A stretch of DNA of 25,802 nt from a virus, in IMG/VR virus record IMGVR_UViG_3300038441_000501, positions 1 through 25,802 of that record. One strand, 5' to 3'. Position numbers and translations under genes: made by a program. Positions 6,787 through 13,713 of this stretch are shown here, in pieces (the first letter of the stretch is position 1; each line of letters begins with the position of its first letter). Under the pieces are notes generated by a model, which saw nothing but the letters and a program-made list of their open reading frames with translations, did not search any database and was not told the DNA's origin.

Positions 6787-7358
6787 CAGACGCCCCACAT
6801 GCGGTAGTAGTCCAGGAGGCCGTCGACGAAGTCGTGCCGCACCTTCGGCTTTTCGCCGCTGGCGCTTCGCGTTCCATACATCTCGGTGATCGCCAACCTC
6901 ATCCACTGTTTCAGAGGCGCTGGCACGTCGCTGGGCGAGTCACCATACCCGGCGGTGTAGTTCACCACCACGGCGTTTTGCATGTTGCGCGTGGCCGGCC
7001 AGGACTTGCCATATGCAGGCAGCAGGAAGCCTGGCTCGCTGATGTTGTCGAGCATGTAGTCCTGCGGATCCAGCGTCCTCTGCACGCCCGCTTCGTCGAG
7101 GAAAAGCACGCTTTGCACCGCGATGACCGGTGGCTGCAGCAGCTTGAACGCTTCGGGAAACGCATCGACTGTCAATCGCCAGGGCGTGCGGATCAGCGTT
7201 CGCTCGATGCGGCTCTCGCAGGCTTCTCGGGCCACCCGAATGAGGCTGGTCACCAGGTCGTCGTTGACGCCTGCGTTCTCGTTCAGGTGCACCAGCGTCT
7301 CGGCCAAGGTCAGCGGTTCCGCTACCGGTGCGCCAGCGCGTCGGGGAAATGCTGTCAT
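6786..7358 (-). CDS. Head-tail connector protein (phiE125 gp8 family)
   Basis: A 190-aa protein with the gp6/phiE125 gp8 connector pattern: LTLAETLVHLNENAGVNDDL, 'IraAReaCE.rt.R.Li...W', then PPVIAVQSVLFLDEAGVQRT, VVNYTAGYGDSPSDVPAPLK and a final 'W...itemYg.R' helix. It forms the first ring beneath the portal. It overlaps the LamG-domain gene by 4 bp (ATGA). This marks the return to ordinary head-tail genes after three capsid-region genes. Confidence 0.88.
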   Translation of the reverse strand: MTAFPRRAGAPVAEPLTLAETLVHLNENAGVNDDLVTSLIRVAREACESRIERTLIRTPWRLTVDAFPEAFKLLQPPVIAVQSVLFLDEAGVQRTLDPQDYMLDNISEPGFLLPAYGKSWPATRNMQNAVVVNYTAGYGDSPSDVPAPLKQWMRLAITEMYGTRSASGEKPKVRHDFVDGLLDYYRMWGV

Positions 7359-10300
7359 CGTGAAGGTCTCTGTGTTGTCATGGATCTGGACGGTCGCCCG
7401 CCCGCCTGGGCGCGCACAGGGCGCACCACGTCGTACCGTCCGGATCCGCCCGCTGGCGCCCTCGCGTACTCCCCCACCACCTGCAGAACGGCCGACGCCG
7501 ACGCGATGGCCGCACCGTGTGCAGACATCTGCACAGTGGGCTGAAACTGCGCCGTGGCGCTGGCCTGAGCGAAAGCGCTGGCGGACAGCGGCACCGTGAG
7601 CTGCAGCGAGCCGCCGGCGATCGCCTCGGCAAGGGCTTGGGCGGTCAACGGCACGGTCAGCTGCAGCGACGCCGATGCGCTGGCCTGCGCCGCGCCGGAA
7701 GCCAGCAGGTCGACAGCGTTGCCGACCTGCAGCCCTGCGCTGGCCAGTGCCTGCGCGAACGCTGCGGCTGCCAGCCGCTTCTGCAGCTGCAGCGCTGCCG
7801 TGGCCGAGGCCTGGGCGGCGCCGTGCGCCGACAGTTCGTTGCCCGCCGTCACCTGAAGGCCTGCCGCGCCGGTTGCCTGCGAGGATCCCGCCGCGCTGAG
7901 CGGCTTGCCAGTCGCCAGGGCAGCGCTGGCCAGGGCCTGCGCAATCGCCACGGCACCGAGCCGCACGGAGATGGACAGGACAGCGGTAGCCGAGGCTTGC
8001 GCCGTGCCTGCCGCCGACAGCTCGGCGCCGGAGGAAACCTGCAGCTCAGCCGAGCCTGCAGCCTGCGCGGCGCCGGCAGCTGAGAGCGGCTTGCCCACGC
8101 TGACGCCGGCCGAGGCCAGGGCCGCAGCCAGGCCGCTGGCGCTCAACTGCACCGACAAGGCGAGTTGAGCGCCGGCAACGGCGACCGCAGCGGCCGAGGC
8201 CTGCAGTGGCACGCCGTGGCTGATGCTTGCGCTGCCGCCTGCGTTCGCGATGCCCGCAGCGGTCAGCTGCACGGCCTTGAGCAGGGACGCGCCTGCAGTA
8301 GCCTGCGCGGCGCCGCTGGCAGCCAGACTCTTCGCCAAGGCCAATGCGGCCGTGCCGCTGGCCTGAGCGGCCGCAGCAGCTGCCAAGGTGACACCCGGCG
8401 TCGCGGGCTTGCGGATGATGTAGCCGCCCGTGGCCCAGGAGTCGGACTGGATGCGCCAGTCACCTGCGGCGAGAGCCTCGTTGTTGCTCACCTCCAGGTT
8501 GCGCGCGGCCAGGGTGCCCGAGATCGCGCCGCGATCGATGCTGCTGAGCGTCGACCAGGCGGTGGCGCTCGCGAGCACAGGGTCGTCGTCAACCACACCG
8601 AACATCACAAGGCGTCCACCGCCGTCCGTGGCACCTGCGTTGTACGCCGGCGACAGCATGCTGGTCTCCGCCGTGCCCGCGCTGGATCGTGTTGCCGTGG
8701 CGCCGATGGGCGTAGTGGCATCGAACTCGCCAGCCAGTACCTTGAGCACGTCCGCCGTCCATTGCTCGGACGCGCTCGGCGTGAAGTTGCGGTTGGCGGC
8801 CGCCCAGGTGCCGGTAGCGATGTAGCGCCAGACGGCCAGACGGGCTTCGGTGCCGTTGCTGGCCACAGGGCCGAGCACGAGCGTGGCCGCCTCACCGTTC
8901 GGACCAGCTGGTGGGGTAACCGCCGTCACGTCTGTGCTGTCGTCCCAGCCGATGTGAACGAGGAGCATGTCCCCGGCGACCATGGCCGGGCAGGCCACGC
9001 CCCAAGACGTGCTGGCCGTGTTGTTGCCGCTGGCCGTCACGTCGCCCGCCACGGGAAACGCCACGGCGGGCGCCACAGTGGCGAGGCTGGCAGGCGCCCA
9101 CGTGGCGAGCGTGATCGGGCCCGCGTAGGTGTTCTGAGTCGTCGCCGTCTCGGTTCCGTTGGCCGTGATGCGCTTCGAGCGCAGCAACGAGCATGTCCAA
9201 TAGCCGATGGAGCCGGTGGATTCGCCTTGGAGCACGGACTCCCATCCGGCTTCATTGCCAGGAAACGCGCCGGATGCGGCGTTCAATCGGGTATCCAGTG
9301 CCACGGCCAAGCCATCGGCGACGCCCGTCGCGCTGGCCACCCCTGCAGTCGTGCCGTCACCGGTGGCTTGCCCATAGCCGCGCGCCGTCACCCCCGTGGT
9401 GTCCTGCACGAAGTAGACGAAGGCATGCGCACCTGAGAGCGAGTTGGCCTGCGTGAACGCGATCGTGACGCTGCGGCCCGCCGCCCAGTTCGCCACCGGA
9501 GCGGTGCACACCCAGCCGCCTGCGCTGGTCGCTATCGCCGCGTTGCCGGTGTTACTGAACGCGGCCGAGAAGTCCGAAGCGATCGAAGCGAGGTCGGTGT
9601 AGGGCGCCACCGTGTCGTCGCTGCCGACGATGTGCACTGCGGCGTACTGAGCCCACTCTGGCACGTTCACTGTGCGAACGCCCGGCGTCGCTGTACTTCC
9701 CAGGTCGACAAGCTGCGGCGTGCCCAGGATGCTGGGACGGTAGATGAAGGCAGCGCCATCGCCGCAAGGCACCAGCGGGTTGTCGACCAGGTCAGGCTCC
9801 CCGGCCACGGTATCGTCAAAGCGGCCGCTGCCGGCCTCCATTGGCCAGTTGTGAAGCAGATTGCGGGTGCGCACCGGCACCGTCGAACGGTACTCGCGGC
9901 GGTGCTCTGCTTCGGTCAGGAGTGCCGACCACATGCGCCAGCGGGCAATCGTGCAGTCGGTGTAGTTCTCCAGCTCGCCGTACCCGCCCCATTGGAGGCT
10001 GCGCTCGCCCGGTCGGTCAGCTTCGTGCGTCGTCGTGGGCGTGAACGCCATGGACAGAACCTGCACTCCATCCACCAGGCAGCGGACGGTGCCGGCGCCG
10101 TTGTAGTCGATCGCGAGGTTGTACTCGCGACCTTCGACCATCGTGAAGTTGCTGCCGCTGGTGACGATCGCGCTCGGTGTGCCGTTCCAGCCCTCCAGGC
10201 GGCAGCTGGTGCCGTCGTCGTTCATGTACAGGCCGACCCACGAGCGGGCGTCGGTCGTGCTGTACAGGGCAACGATCAGGGTGTTGCGCAGCCCACTGGC

Positions 10301-10423
10301 GACAAGGGCGTCGCGTCGGTAGAGGCCAGCGACCGTCCACACGCTCGCCAGCGAGGGAACGGAGTGCCCCAGCGGTTGGTGCATGTAGGCCGCTTGCCAC
10401 CCCGCATTGAACTTCAAGGCCAC
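7355..10423 (-). CDS. Large LamG-domain protein with 15 tandem 20-aa repeats; probable virion surface fibre
   Basis: A 1022-aa protein from a GTG at 10423 (MALKFNAGWQAAYMHQPLGH), with GGGG six bases upstream. Residues about 25-215 look like a concanavalin A/laminin G beta-sandwich (LIVALYSTTDARSWVGLYMN, TMVEGREYNLAIDYNGAGTV, NYTDCTIARWRMWSALLTEA). Residues about 235-460 and 460-675 are beta-rich, with Thr/Ser/Gly/Ala-rich segments. Residues 678-984 are 15 tandem Ala-rich repeats of 20-22 residues, and a 38-residue basic tail ends the protein. LamG domains commonly bind carbohydrate. The gene lies between capsid and connector genes rather than with tail-fibre genes, so a head decoration fibre is a real possibility; this is inference. 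No catalytic motif was seen. Confidence 0.75.
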   Translation of the reverse strand: MALKFNAGWQAAYMHQPLGHSVPSLASVWTVAGLYRRDALVASGLRNTLIVALYSTTDARSWVGLYMNDDGTSCRLEGWNGTPSAIVTSGSNFTMVEGREYNLAIDYNGAGTVRCLVDGVQVLSMAFTPTTTHEADRPGERSLQWGGYGELENYTDCTIARWRMWSALLTEAEHRREYRSTVPVRTRNLLHNWPMEAGSGRFDDTVAGEPDLVDNPLVPCGDGAAFIYRPSILGTPQLVDLGSTATPGVRTVNVPEWAQYAAVHIVGSDDTVAPYTDLASIASDFSAAFSNTGNAAIATSAGGWVCTAPVANWAAGRSVTIAFTQANSLSGAHAFVYFVQDTTGVTARGYGQATGDGTTAGVASATGVADGLAVALDTRLNAASGAFPGNEAGWESVLQGESTGSIGYWTCSLLRSKRITANGTETATTQNTYAGPITLATWAPASLATVAPAVAFPVAGDVTASGNNTASTSWGVACPAMVAGDMLLVHIGWDDSTDVTAVTPPAGPNGEAATLVLGPVASNGTEARLAVWRYIATGTWAAANRNFTPSASEQWTADVLKVLAGEFDATTPIGATATRSSAGTAETSMLSPAYNAGATDGGGRLVMFGVVDDDPVLASATAWSTLSSIDRGAISGTLAARNLEVSNNEALAAGDWRIQSDSWATGGYIIRKPATPGVTLAAAAAAQASGTAALALAKSLAASGAAQATAGASLLKAVQLTAAGIANAGGSASISHGVPLQASAAAVAVAGAQLALSVQLSASGLAAALASAGVSVGKPLSAAGAAQAAGSAELQVSSGAELSAAGTAQASATAVLSISVRLGAVAIAQALASAALATGKPLSAAGSSQATGAAGLQVTAGNELSAHGAAQASATAALQLQKRLAAAAFAQALASAGLQVGNAVDLLASGAAQASASASLQLTVPLTAQALAEAIAGGSLQLTVPLSASAFAQASATAQFQPTVQMSAHGAAIASASAVLQVVGEYARAPAGGSGRYDVVRPVRAQAGGRPSRSMTTQRPSR
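7472..8392 (-). repeat. 15 coding tandem repeats of 20-22 codons
   Basis: Residues 678-984 of the LamG protein. The consensus is about xLSASGAAQASASASLQLxV, with a charged or Pro residue starting each unit (PL, QL, EL, RL). Eleven or so copies keep the 'AxAxASAxL' alternation expected of a beta-type solenoid or a fibrous stalk. A longer unit of three repeats (PLSAAG..., ELSA.G..., RL.A.A...) occurs twice in a row at about residues 779-840 and 841-904, a sign of recent duplication or a source of length variation. Confidence 0.85.
7519..7534. repeat. Scattered palindrome family, site A (perfect)
   Basis: GTGCAGACATCTGCAC, whose arms GTGCAGA/TCTGCAC are perfectly complementary. Its reverse complement is identical to site B at 17377-17392, and the identity extends to 18 bases on the minus strand (ending CACAC). 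It lies in the last of the 15 coding repeats of the LamG protein (codons for TVQMSAHG). Confidence 0.6.
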
Positions 10424-10477: not shown

Positions 10478-10990
10478 TCAGTTGTCGAGCTGGAAGGTGA
10501 GCGCTGCAGCGGGGAACGTGACGTTGTCGCCGATGTTGATGGTCTTGCTCACACCGAGCGGCACGCAGATCCAGGCATTCCCACCCGTGGAAAGGTCCCA
10601 CCAGCGCATGGAAACCACCGTCCCCCAACCGGCTGTAGGCGTGGCGTAGGTCACCACGATGTTGTTGCTCGTGGTGCCACTGGTCCCCGTGCTTGCCGTC
10701 GTGCTGCCCGCCGACTGCGTGCCCGCGAAGTTCGCCATGGAGGCGGTGACCGCCACCCGCGCGTAGGAGCCACCGGTCACCTCGGTGCCGCCACCCGTTT
10801 CGCCGCAGGCGGCGGTGTCGAGGCCGATGTACCAGGTAGCCGGCGCGCCGAGGGTCTGCGCGCGGATGACCGCGTCGACGATCTTGTTTTCGGCGTAGTC
10901 AGTGAGTGCGCCAGCCCGGGCGGGACTCGCCAGGACGGAGACGGCAGAAAGGGCGAGGCCGGCAAGGAAGCGGCGGCGCAACATCTTCAT
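10478..10990 (-). CDS. Capsid-region structural protein with Tat-like signal peptide
   Basis: A 170-aa protein. Residues 27-170 (GALTDYAENKIVDAVIRAQT, TWYIGLDTAACGETGGGTEV, SYARVAVTASMANFAGTQSA, final PAAALTFQLDN) belong to a phage family I know from genomes as a small protein of about 140 aa usually starting 'MALTDYAENkl'. Here it is preceded by a signal-peptide-like leader: residues 1-26, twin arginines R5-R6-R7-F-L, a hydrophobic core AGLALSAVSVLA and a cleavage-like ARA|G site. The start at 10990 has GGAG at 8 bases' distance. The upstream in-frame ATG at 11038 is inside a hairpin and has no ribosome site. The role is not known; head or fibre decoration is inference. Confidence 0.7.
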   Translation of the reverse strand: MKMLRRRFLAGLALSAVSVLASPARAGALTDYAENKIVDAVIRAQTLGAPATWYIGLDTAACGETGGGTEVTGGSYARVAVTASMANFAGTQSAGSTTASTGTSGTTSNNIVVTYATPTAGWGTVVSMRWWDLSTGGNAWICVPLGVSKTINIGDNVTFPAAALTFQLDN

Positions 10991-11582: not shown

Positions 11583-13037
11583 TCAGGCTTCGCACTTCAG
11601 CAGCTTGATCGCTTCGAAGTTCTGCACGCCGCCACCGGTGCGGCGCCGGGCCAGGAACCGCACCGCCGGGAACGCCGTGGCAGGGTCGCGCAGGATCGAC
11701 ACGCCCTTGCGGTCGACAATGACGTAGCCGCGCTGGAAGTCGCCGAAGGCCACCGGCGAAGCGTTCGCGCCGAGGTCGGGCATGAAGTCGTCGGTGTTGA
11801 CGCTGTGACCGAGCAGTTGGCCCACGGCACCCTGCATCAAGTTGGACGGTGCCCACAGGTAAATGCCGTTGCCGTCCTTGAACTTGCGGATGGTGCCCAG
11901 CGTGGCATCGTTCATGTTCCACACAGCGTTGCCGCGATACTGGCGCTTGAGCGAGTGCTGCAGGTCGATCAGCGCGTCGGACGGACTGGCGTTCGCCCAA
12001 CCAGCGGCGCCGCCGCTCTTCACATAGCCCAGCTTGCCCCACTCATAGTTCGCGTTGGGCACGATGTCGTAGGACAGCAGGCCGCGCGGGCCGTTGAGCC
12101 CGTCGCCGAAGATGACGTCGTAGCCCTCCATCTCGGCGAACTCGATGCCGATTTCCTCTTCGAGGTCGGCGCCGATGTCCTGCACGATGTCCTCCAGCGA
12201 CTCGCTGGTGAGGCGCTGCTCGGAGACGTAGGTGCCGGGCTTAAACTCTAGTTCGGCCCAGCGGGGCGAGGTGCCCTCGGCGGGCTGGGTGCTCTCGCCG
12301 CCGCGCTTGGCGCCGCCCGTGCCGGAGATCTTCACCAGCTTCTTGTAGGTGGCCTGGCCGAGAGGGCGGACACGCGCGATCTGGCGCATGCCGCTGTAGC
12401 GGTGCACCACGCGGTCGATGCCCGATTCCATTTCCTCGCCCACCAGGAAGCCGCCCTGCGAGGAGGTGCCGACGTTGATGGCCTTGAGCTGGTCGGGCGT
12501 CATGCCCTTTTCGCCGTAGCGGATGTGAGCGTCGATCGCGGACTTGTAGGCCGCGTATTGCTCGGAGTCCATGGGCGTGAAGGACTTGCCACCTTCGATC
12601 GCGGCGGCTTTCGCCTTCGCGTTGAACCGCTCCAGCTCTTTCGCGGCCTTCTCGGCCATATCGCCAGAGACGACAGGGCGGTTGGCCTTGAGGGCGATCT
12701 CCTTCAGTTCCTTGCCGGCTTCGGTCAACGCCAGGTCCATCTTCGCGAGCTTTTGCTCCAGCTCGGAAACCGACTCGCCCTTGGCGAGTTTGGCGATGCG
12801 TTCGTCGTTCGTCTTCTTGTACTCCTCCCAGGTGGTGCCCTGCTTTTCAACCAGACCCTTGATGTCCTGGAGGGTGGTTTCGCCGGCCGCGAACGGCATG
12901 GCGCCAAGGGCGCCGAGGCCTGCGAGCGCCTCGGGCGGGAGGTAGCTGGTTGCTGGGTAGCCGGCGAAGGCGGCGATGCACGCCACTGCGAGGACGGCCA
13001 CAAAGGCCAGGGTCATGTTGCGACGAGTGAGTTTCAC
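11583..13037 (-). CDS. HK97-family major capsid protein with N-terminal hydrophobic leader
   Basis: A 484-aa protein from a GTG at 13037. AAAAGGA lies 7 bases upstream, a clear ribosome site, and the gene follows the protease by 13 bp. Residues 1-26 form a leader: basic KLTRRN, then about 18 hydrophobic residues. A Pro/Gly/Ala linker follows, then a charged coiled-coil delta region at about 53-150 (DIKGLVEKQGTTWEEYKKTN). The HK97 core begins near residue 185 (SSQGGFLVGEEMESGIDRVV) and includes YVSEQRLTSESLEDIVQDIG, FGDGLNGPRGLLSYDIV and a C-terminal VDRKGVSILRDPATA.FPAVRF..RRR. The delta domain is normally a scaffold removed by the protease. A start further in (M47) has no ribosome site. The hydrophobic leader is unusual for this family. 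Confidence 0.92.
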   Translation of the reverse strand: MKLTRRNMTLAFVAVLAVACIAAFAGYPATSYLPPEALAGLGALGAMPFAAGETTLQDIKGLVEKQGTTWEEYKKTNDERIAKLAKGESVSELEQKLAKMDLALTEAGKELKEIALKANRPVVSGDMAEKAAKELERFNAKAKAAAIEGGKSFTPMDSEQYAAYKSAIDAHIRYGEKGMTPDQLKAINVGTSSQGGFLVGEEMESGIDRVVHRYSGMRQIARVRPLGQATYKKLVKISGTGGAKRGGESTQPAEGTSPRWAELEFKPGTYVSEQRLTSESLEDIVQDIGADLEEEIGIEFAEMEGYDVIFGDGLNGPRGLLSYDIVPNANYEWGKLGYVKSGGAAGWANASPSDALIDLQHSLKRQYRGNAVWNMNDATLGTIRKFKDGNGIYLWAPSNLMQGAVGQLLGHSVNTDDFMPDLGANASPVAFGDFQRGYVIVDRKGVSILRDPATAFPAVRFLARRRTGGGVQNFEAIKLLKCEA

Positions 13038-13050
13038 GTCTGTTTCCTTT

Positions 13051-13713
13051 TCAGAGTTGAGATTGGATTGCGGCACCGCGCTTCTTCAACGCAGCGACCA
13101 GATCGCCCAGCTCGTCAGACTCCCTCTGACCCGACAGGGACTTGAAGCGGCTGATGAAGGCCGCGGCCTGCGCGTTCGAAAGCCCACCCACATCCCGTAG
13201 GAAGGCCTCCGCACCACGCACGGTTTCGATGGCGTCAATTGCGCTCTTGACGCTGCTGACGCCTGCCATGTTGTTCATTGGGAAGGTCACGAGGCTGCCT
13301 TCCCACAAGTCGACCTTCTTGAGCGTTCGAACGCCGGTGACCCGGTCCCAGCTGTCATCGCGGGAGACGTAGCCAATACTCATCCCCTTGATGGCTTTCG
13401 CCTTCAGGAGAGCGCGTGCTTCCTTTGCACGAGGAATGTCGTCGACCAGCAGGCGGCCCTTGACCCAGAGACCGATGCTGTCCTCGCGCATTTCCAAGAA
13501 CGGGCCAATCGGCTCACCTGCACGGTGCTGCCACAACACTGGCGGCAGTTCTCCCTTCGACTTCCATGCTTCGAGGTTTTCCGTGAAGGCACCAGGCACA
13601 ACGATGTCGCCGCCTTGATCGACGTTGTTGAACACGCTCAGATAGCCACTGAACGTACCGTCCTCCTCCACAGCTTTCACCTCGAAGGGGCGCTCGACGT
13701 AGCGAAGTTCCAT
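13051..13713 (-). CDS. HK97-family prohead protease
   Basis: A 220-aa protein starting MELRYVERPFEVKAVEEDGT. It has the herpesvirus-like prohead protease fold pattern: 'F.GYlSVFnn.D..gDiv.pGAF' at 21-45, the catalytic histidine H63 in LPPVLWQHRAGEPIG, and the catalytic serine S112 in IKGMSIGYVSRDD. The C-terminal helical tail (about 165-220) resembles a self-cleaved scaffold-like region. It removes the capsid delta domain during maturation. It follows the portal stop by 10 bp; an AAAGAG site lies 5 bases before the ATG at 13713. An upstream ATG at 13791 lies in the portal gene and is rejected. Confidence 0.93.
   Translation of the reverse strand: MELRYVERPFEVKAVEEDGTFSGYLSVFNNVDQGGDIVVPGAFTENLEAWKSKGELPPVLWQHRAGEPIGPFLEMREDSIGLWVKGRLLVDDIPRAKEARALLKAKAIKGMSIGYVSRDDSWDRVTGVRTLKKVDLWEGSLVTFPMNNMAGVSSVKSAIDAIETVRGAEAFLRDVGGLSNAQAAAFISRFKSLSGQRESDELGDLVAALKKRGAAIQSQL

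Follow-up and report, generated by a model that had tools for sequence, protein, structure and literature searches.

The major capsid protein encoded in a 25,802-nucleotide stretch of viral DNA (hereafter, the window) carries, ahead of its scaffolding domain, a hydrophobic leader that is real, translated, under constraint and recurrent among related capsids. The leader is a 54-codon module with the ribosome site on one side and the delta domain on the other. There is about an even chance, in our estimate, that this module anchors the capsid precursor in the inner membrane, where the subunits would be concentrated until the prohead is proteolyzed; we consider this the best reading of the leader, and it is the one that explains the charge pattern best.

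The capsid gene spans positions 11583-13037, as the original prediction had it, and lies on the minus strand, as do all other features described below, with the GTG start at 13037 and the stop at 11583. The 484-aa product passes the cut-offs of both families of HK97-type capsids by a wide margin (TIGR01554, 1e-82, 278 bits vs 27.5; PF05065, 8e-58, 196 vs 24.2), and its top PDB match, both by sequence and by fold, is the RcGTA capsid. An S78 prohead protease gene (13051-13713; PF04586, 5e-33; TIGR01543, 3e-36) lies directly upstream, separated from the capsid gene by 13 bases, and a coiled-coil delta domain is fused to the capsid, both of which are features of the HK97 type. The TIGR01554 match begins only at residue 57, and therefore some 54 residues at the N-terminus lie outside the family model. 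The GTG start with a ribosome site, which had been predicted, is borne out by a Shine-Dalgarno (SD) sequence, AAGGA (13045-13049), located 7 nt from the GTG. Two relatives, L001 and L053, have this element equally placed with respect to the start of the leader, and their capsids, like that of the window, begin at the same point behind the stop of the protease gene. No SD-like sequence precedes the ATG/GTG codons 8, 13, 18 and 47, the last of which (M47) had been correctly described as an alternative start devoid of a ribosome site.

The leader also evolves as a coding sequence. Between the window and L001 (94% identical), it has changed synonymously 17 times and nonsynonymously 8 times (dN/dS 0.13; Fisher p 4e-6), and the constraint is weaker in more distant pairs (dN/dS 0.4; p about 0.02). 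Judging from these substitutions, the leader is translated and is subject to purifying selection. The ribosome site, the constraint and the conserved arrangement in relatives jointly rule out a misread capsid start.

The N-terminus of the capsid protein is MKLTRRNMTLAFVAVLAVACIAAFAGYPATSYLPPEALAGLGALGAMPFAAGE, followed by the coiled-coil delta domain, and the leader itself reads MKLTRRN / MTLAFVAVLAVACIAAFAG / YPATSYLP / PEALAGLGALGAMPFAAGE. Residues 1-9 (13011-13037) form a basic tail (K2, R5, R6), and residues 10-26 (12960-13010) a TM-grade hydrophobic helix with a KD17 of 2.65, compared to 0.84 for the best 17-mer elsewhere in the protein, in agreement with the predicted succession of a basic and a hydrophobic segment before the coiled coil. 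Among full-length shuffles, 106 of 11,200 (~1%) reach 2.0 in the first 45 residues. Next comes the turn YPATSYLP (residues 27-34; 12936-12959), represented by (A)GHPxxxP in the alignments of relatives, and then PEALAGLGALGAMPFA, a second hydrophobic stretch that is shorter than the first and has AGE after it (residues 35-50; 12888-12935; KD13 1.58), a pattern that is kept in relatives. AF2 models of the leader with the delta domain (25 rows, pLDDT 62) contain helices at residues 5-25 (low confidence), 35-45, 53-86 and 91-118; these models, as well as that of the full-length capsid (17 rows, pLDDT 55), are weak and are used for secondary structure only. The helix at 35-45 is short and is modeled with a pLDDT of about 55; as modeled, it appears too short for a membrane span, so that two full spans fit less well than a hairpin of the re-entrant or interfacial type.

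The delta (scaffolding) domain occupies residues 55 to 185, approximately (12483-12875), and the homology with leaderless relatives begins at residue 54-58, that is, at its N-terminal end. The HK97 cleavage site K103/S104 aligns with K185/A186, and the aligned lysine is widely kept in the capsid subfamily of the window, so that the predicted mature capsid protein consists of residues 186-484 (299 aa; 11586-12482). This site is downstream of the leader, and therefore the leader and the delta domain should leave together; the proposal that the prohead protease removes both is thus supported, as a prediction from the alignment with HK97.

To characterize the spread of the leader, we assembled 153 non-identical relatives of the window capsid, which were collected by similarity and do not represent a random sample. 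Among these, 28 have a strong hydrophobic N-terminus, defined as a KD15 of at least 2.0 within the first 45 residues, and 15 have a weaker one. HK97 gp5 resembles the window protein in the capsid fold, the neighboring S78 protease, the coiled-coil pro-region and the aligned cut position but differs in that hydrophobic N-termini are absent from its family (0 of 59 non-identical capsids). In a control family, around Burkholderia phage Bcep176, 1 of the 64 capsids has a strong hydrophobic N-terminus and 27 have weaker, Ala-rich ones, hence hydrophobic starts are not unique to the subfamily of the window. All 28 strong leaders combine a basic tail (+1 to +3) with a first helix, TM1, of KD17 2.0-2.95, and in 25 of them the segment from TM1 to the delta domain contains 0-1 K/R; a TM-grade helix (KD17 of at least 2.0) with such charge asymmetry is the signature sought for an uncleaved inner-membrane anchor. 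Most share a common layout, namely, a basic tail, a 17-residue hydrophobic helix, an (A)GHP..P turn, a short second hydrophobic stretch, GE/GD and the delta domain. The leader persists in relatives that are only 33-40% identical, with capsids of several core types; in these distant relatives, the pattern is kept from the basic tail and the hydrophobic helix through the turn and the second stretch to the acidic end, but the twin arginine is not.

The distribution of the leader is patchy. Four sisters with 66-77% identity, L004 (77% identical to the window capsid), L003, L046 and L043, lack it and are translated from an SD and a start codon of their own that lie at the delta domain. Relatives without the hydrophobic stretch but with the same ribosome site had been named as evidence against a genuine leader, and these four literally match that description. 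However, given that the SD and start of the sisters are at the delta domain and that far relatives have the leader, the pattern reflects gain and loss of a module rather than a misread start. In a tree built by a quick method from 122 rows of nothing but the capsid core, ~18 changes are required for the strong-leader state, at least 13 of these forced by starred branches, vs 24.1 with shuffled labels; these counts are approximate because the leader-bearing L041 was scored as leaderless and some rows in the weaker class were mislabelled. On this tree, the strong-leader state is clustered yet repeatedly gained or lost. In HK97-type capsid precursors, the N-terminus is a hot spot at which hydrophobic leaders occur as modules. 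Homology-based annotation passes over these leaders because the family models begin at the delta domain.

Two other types of leaders were observed. A second, weaker and Ala-rich class (MKK...AxA, followed by VPRGI.SVRAD or YEKREDP) is found in Burkholderiales prophage capsids, namely, L264-L336 (the Bcep176 family, in about 40% of its members) and L015-L033. The Bcep176-type capsids of Burkholderia phages (MSKKLLIAVLTAALTG...VPRGI) are similar to the window protein in having a short basic and hydrophobic N-terminus before the delta domain, but their leader is shorter, weaker and Ala-rich, and lacks the GHP..MPF module. A third leader type, MKIFQILAIAVVIALVLTVGNASADPLML..., occurs on capsids of a related clade, L150 and L156.

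We infer membrane insertion, topology, a role in assembly and release by proteolysis along the following lines. The basic tail and the hydrophobic helix would send the nascent capsid precursor to the inner membrane, after which the conserved Gly-His-Pro...Pro turn and the second short hydrophobic stretch would return the chain toward the cytoplasm. The lysine-rich delta domain and the capsid domain would remain cytoplasmic, with the leader acting as a hairpin or re-entrant anchor, and the precursor subunits would thereby be concentrated at the membrane in early assembly. The prohead protease would then cut at about K185/A186, so that the delta domain and the leader are lost together and the mature capsids are anchor-free. 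The anchor would remain uncleaved by signal peptidase and would probably be a hairpin. Under the positive-inside rule, a single span would place the capsid domain in the periplasm, which counts against an anchor, whereas with a hairpin that has both ends in the cytoplasm, the capsid domain need not be exported. The shortness of the second stretch, which leaves a full hairpin doubtful, and the leaderless close sisters, which manage without the leader, count against the anchor as well. So do the top phage-collection matches to four leader-bearing capsids, none of which aligns through the leader and most of which begin at or near the delta domain. The annotated capsid start of Bradyrhizobium phage ppBeUSDA76-1 carries a hydrophobic leader, MKQFVLGRGAFAVGMLALVTVAAVLVLGF..., and the host of this prophage (denoted ppUSDA76Be-1 in the respective paper), Bradyrhizobium elkanii USDA 76, spontaneously sheds siphophage particles (PMC10127595). 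This case suggests that a leader of this kind does not preclude the formation of particles.

A broader version of the anchor proposal is more tentative, and we consider it possible rather than probable: a mobile anchor module would be swapped on and off the HK97-type capsid precursors of temperate proteobacterial phages, shell assembly would start at the inner membrane via the capsid protein, not the portal, and the maturation protease would destroy the module. In the strongest form, if true, proheads would transiently hold the anchors inside the shell, with lipid or as a hydrophobic core. The site of shell assembly and the factor that holds the shell at the membrane are known for few tailed phages. 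There are precedents for membrane-associated proheads: those of T4 are assembled on the inner membrane (PMC3185693), and those of SPN3US remain there without the prohead protease, their release being protease-dependent (PMC7411985). In T4, the role of the anchor belongs to a connector chaperone located at the portal vertex rather than to the capsid protein. A self-carried, removable anchor on the capsid protein, if true, would be a simple genetic handle, and natural pairs with and without the leader exist (the window vs L004).

The only direct case of a published capsid leader with a signal peptide or TM helices that searches of the open-licence literature gave is gp9 of Gordonia phage EpicDab (MK660712), a capsid-protease fusion with two TM helices predicted in the first 62 residues, in an N-in/C-in orientation, for which a delta-like or holin-like role and removal like that of the delta domain were considered (PMC9671378). 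As in the window, predicted TM helices precede the coiled coil of a capsid precursor, but the protease is part of the same chain, whereas in the window it is a separate gene. The two leaders match at 36% over 39 aa, a score that block shuffles reach in 24 of 1000 cases, so that at the sequence level, homology between them is only suggestive. The annotated ATG of EpicDab gp9 (L374:1023) has no evident strong SD directly upstream.

The delta domains lie inside closed HK97 proheads, pointing inward, and therefore the leaders could hold only free subunits or open shells, and hardly a closed prohead. Accordingly restricted, membrane tethering of early proheads by the leader, as originally proposed, appears plausible in the light of this analysis, but tethering of finished, closed proheads is doubtful. 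The same geometry makes a hydrophobic core within the prohead a serious rival, albeit one that we consider rather unlikely. Several hundred hydrophobic N-termini of delta domains would pack together, or on the portal or protease, into a membrane-free scaffold core that is digested along with the delta domain. The position of the leader at the N-terminal end of a domain that itself is inside the HK97 prohead fits such a role, as do the weaker Ala-rich leaders of other families, which are short for a membrane span, and the AF2 leader helix, which resembles the delta coils. A buried core, however, does not need the membrane-topology signature that consists of the constant positive tail and the near absence of K/R from the helix to the delta domain, and TM-grade hydrophobicity would be expected to draw SRP/Sec in the cell.

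An improbable alternative sees in the leader an N-terminal extension that is neutral or of slight use, either a by-product of frequent recombination at the 5' end of the capsid gene or a device that tunes translation or chaperonin capture. The roughly 18 state changes on the capsid tree and the lack of a leader in sisters at 66-77% identity are compatible with such an origin, but the protein-level constraint and the motif common across large divergence argue against it.

That the leader directs secretion via Tat or Sec, with part of the capsid protein exported, is very unlikely. The general n-h-c layout, the AFA that precedes G26 in the window leader and the convincing Sec signal of the neighboring Gp80-like protein could be taken to favor this interpretation, but DNA packaging is cytoplasmic, and neither type of signal is shared by the leaders. 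The twin arginine highlighted by the original prediction is real in the window sequence but is not a family feature: the window alone among the 28 strong leaders has RR, the counterparts being, among others, RH in L001, RK in L053, RS in L041 and QRK in L010. With RR in 1 of 28 leaders and no conserved RRxF-like motif, a Tat substrate is ruled out. Only about half of the leaders with the G-x-P turn carry at -1 a residue that signal peptidase (SPase) would accept, the others having M, L, I or V, so that cleavage is not a shared property of the leaders; given that the small residues at -3/-1 expected of Sec/SPase I substrates where the hydrophobic region ends are not conserved, it is ruled out in this capacity.

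Least probable of the alternatives, and very unlikely, is a holin-like lysis peptide that the prohead protease sets free, a role like that suggested for EpicDab gp9 (PMC9671378), a notion in keeping with the two hydrophobic stretches in an N-in/C-in style but at odds with the expected origin of the leader-delta product within proheads and with the two dedicated holin genes (PF16931 and PF05449) of the leader-bearing phage of L082, in which the leader is therefore not the only holin candidate.

The Gp80-like virion-associated protein (10478-10990; PF23140, 1e-36 from residue 29) is encoded in the same operon as the capsid and begins with a Sec-type signal peptide (residues 1-26; 10913-10990), the cleavage site of which, unlike any in the capsid leaders, is conserved. 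In about a dozen Gp80-like relatives, the leader sequence varies freely, with an AxA-type site directly before an (A/S)LTDYAENK-like domain start, and other relatives are leaderless, beginning directly with MAAWTDYAENK. Sec-type signal peptides with this constant AxA-type site are found in Gp80 family members from the L001 contig, L338-L346, L357, L361 and L135; at most Gp80 loci, the capsids are unrelated to the query capsids. Periplasmic export of a virion protein of this family would be odd. The 1022-aa product of positions 7355-10423 contains, in the C-terminal half, an extended repeat region rich in Ala and Ser; at some of the other loci (L342, L346), the protein after Gp80 is an Ala-rich repeat protein of a similar kind.
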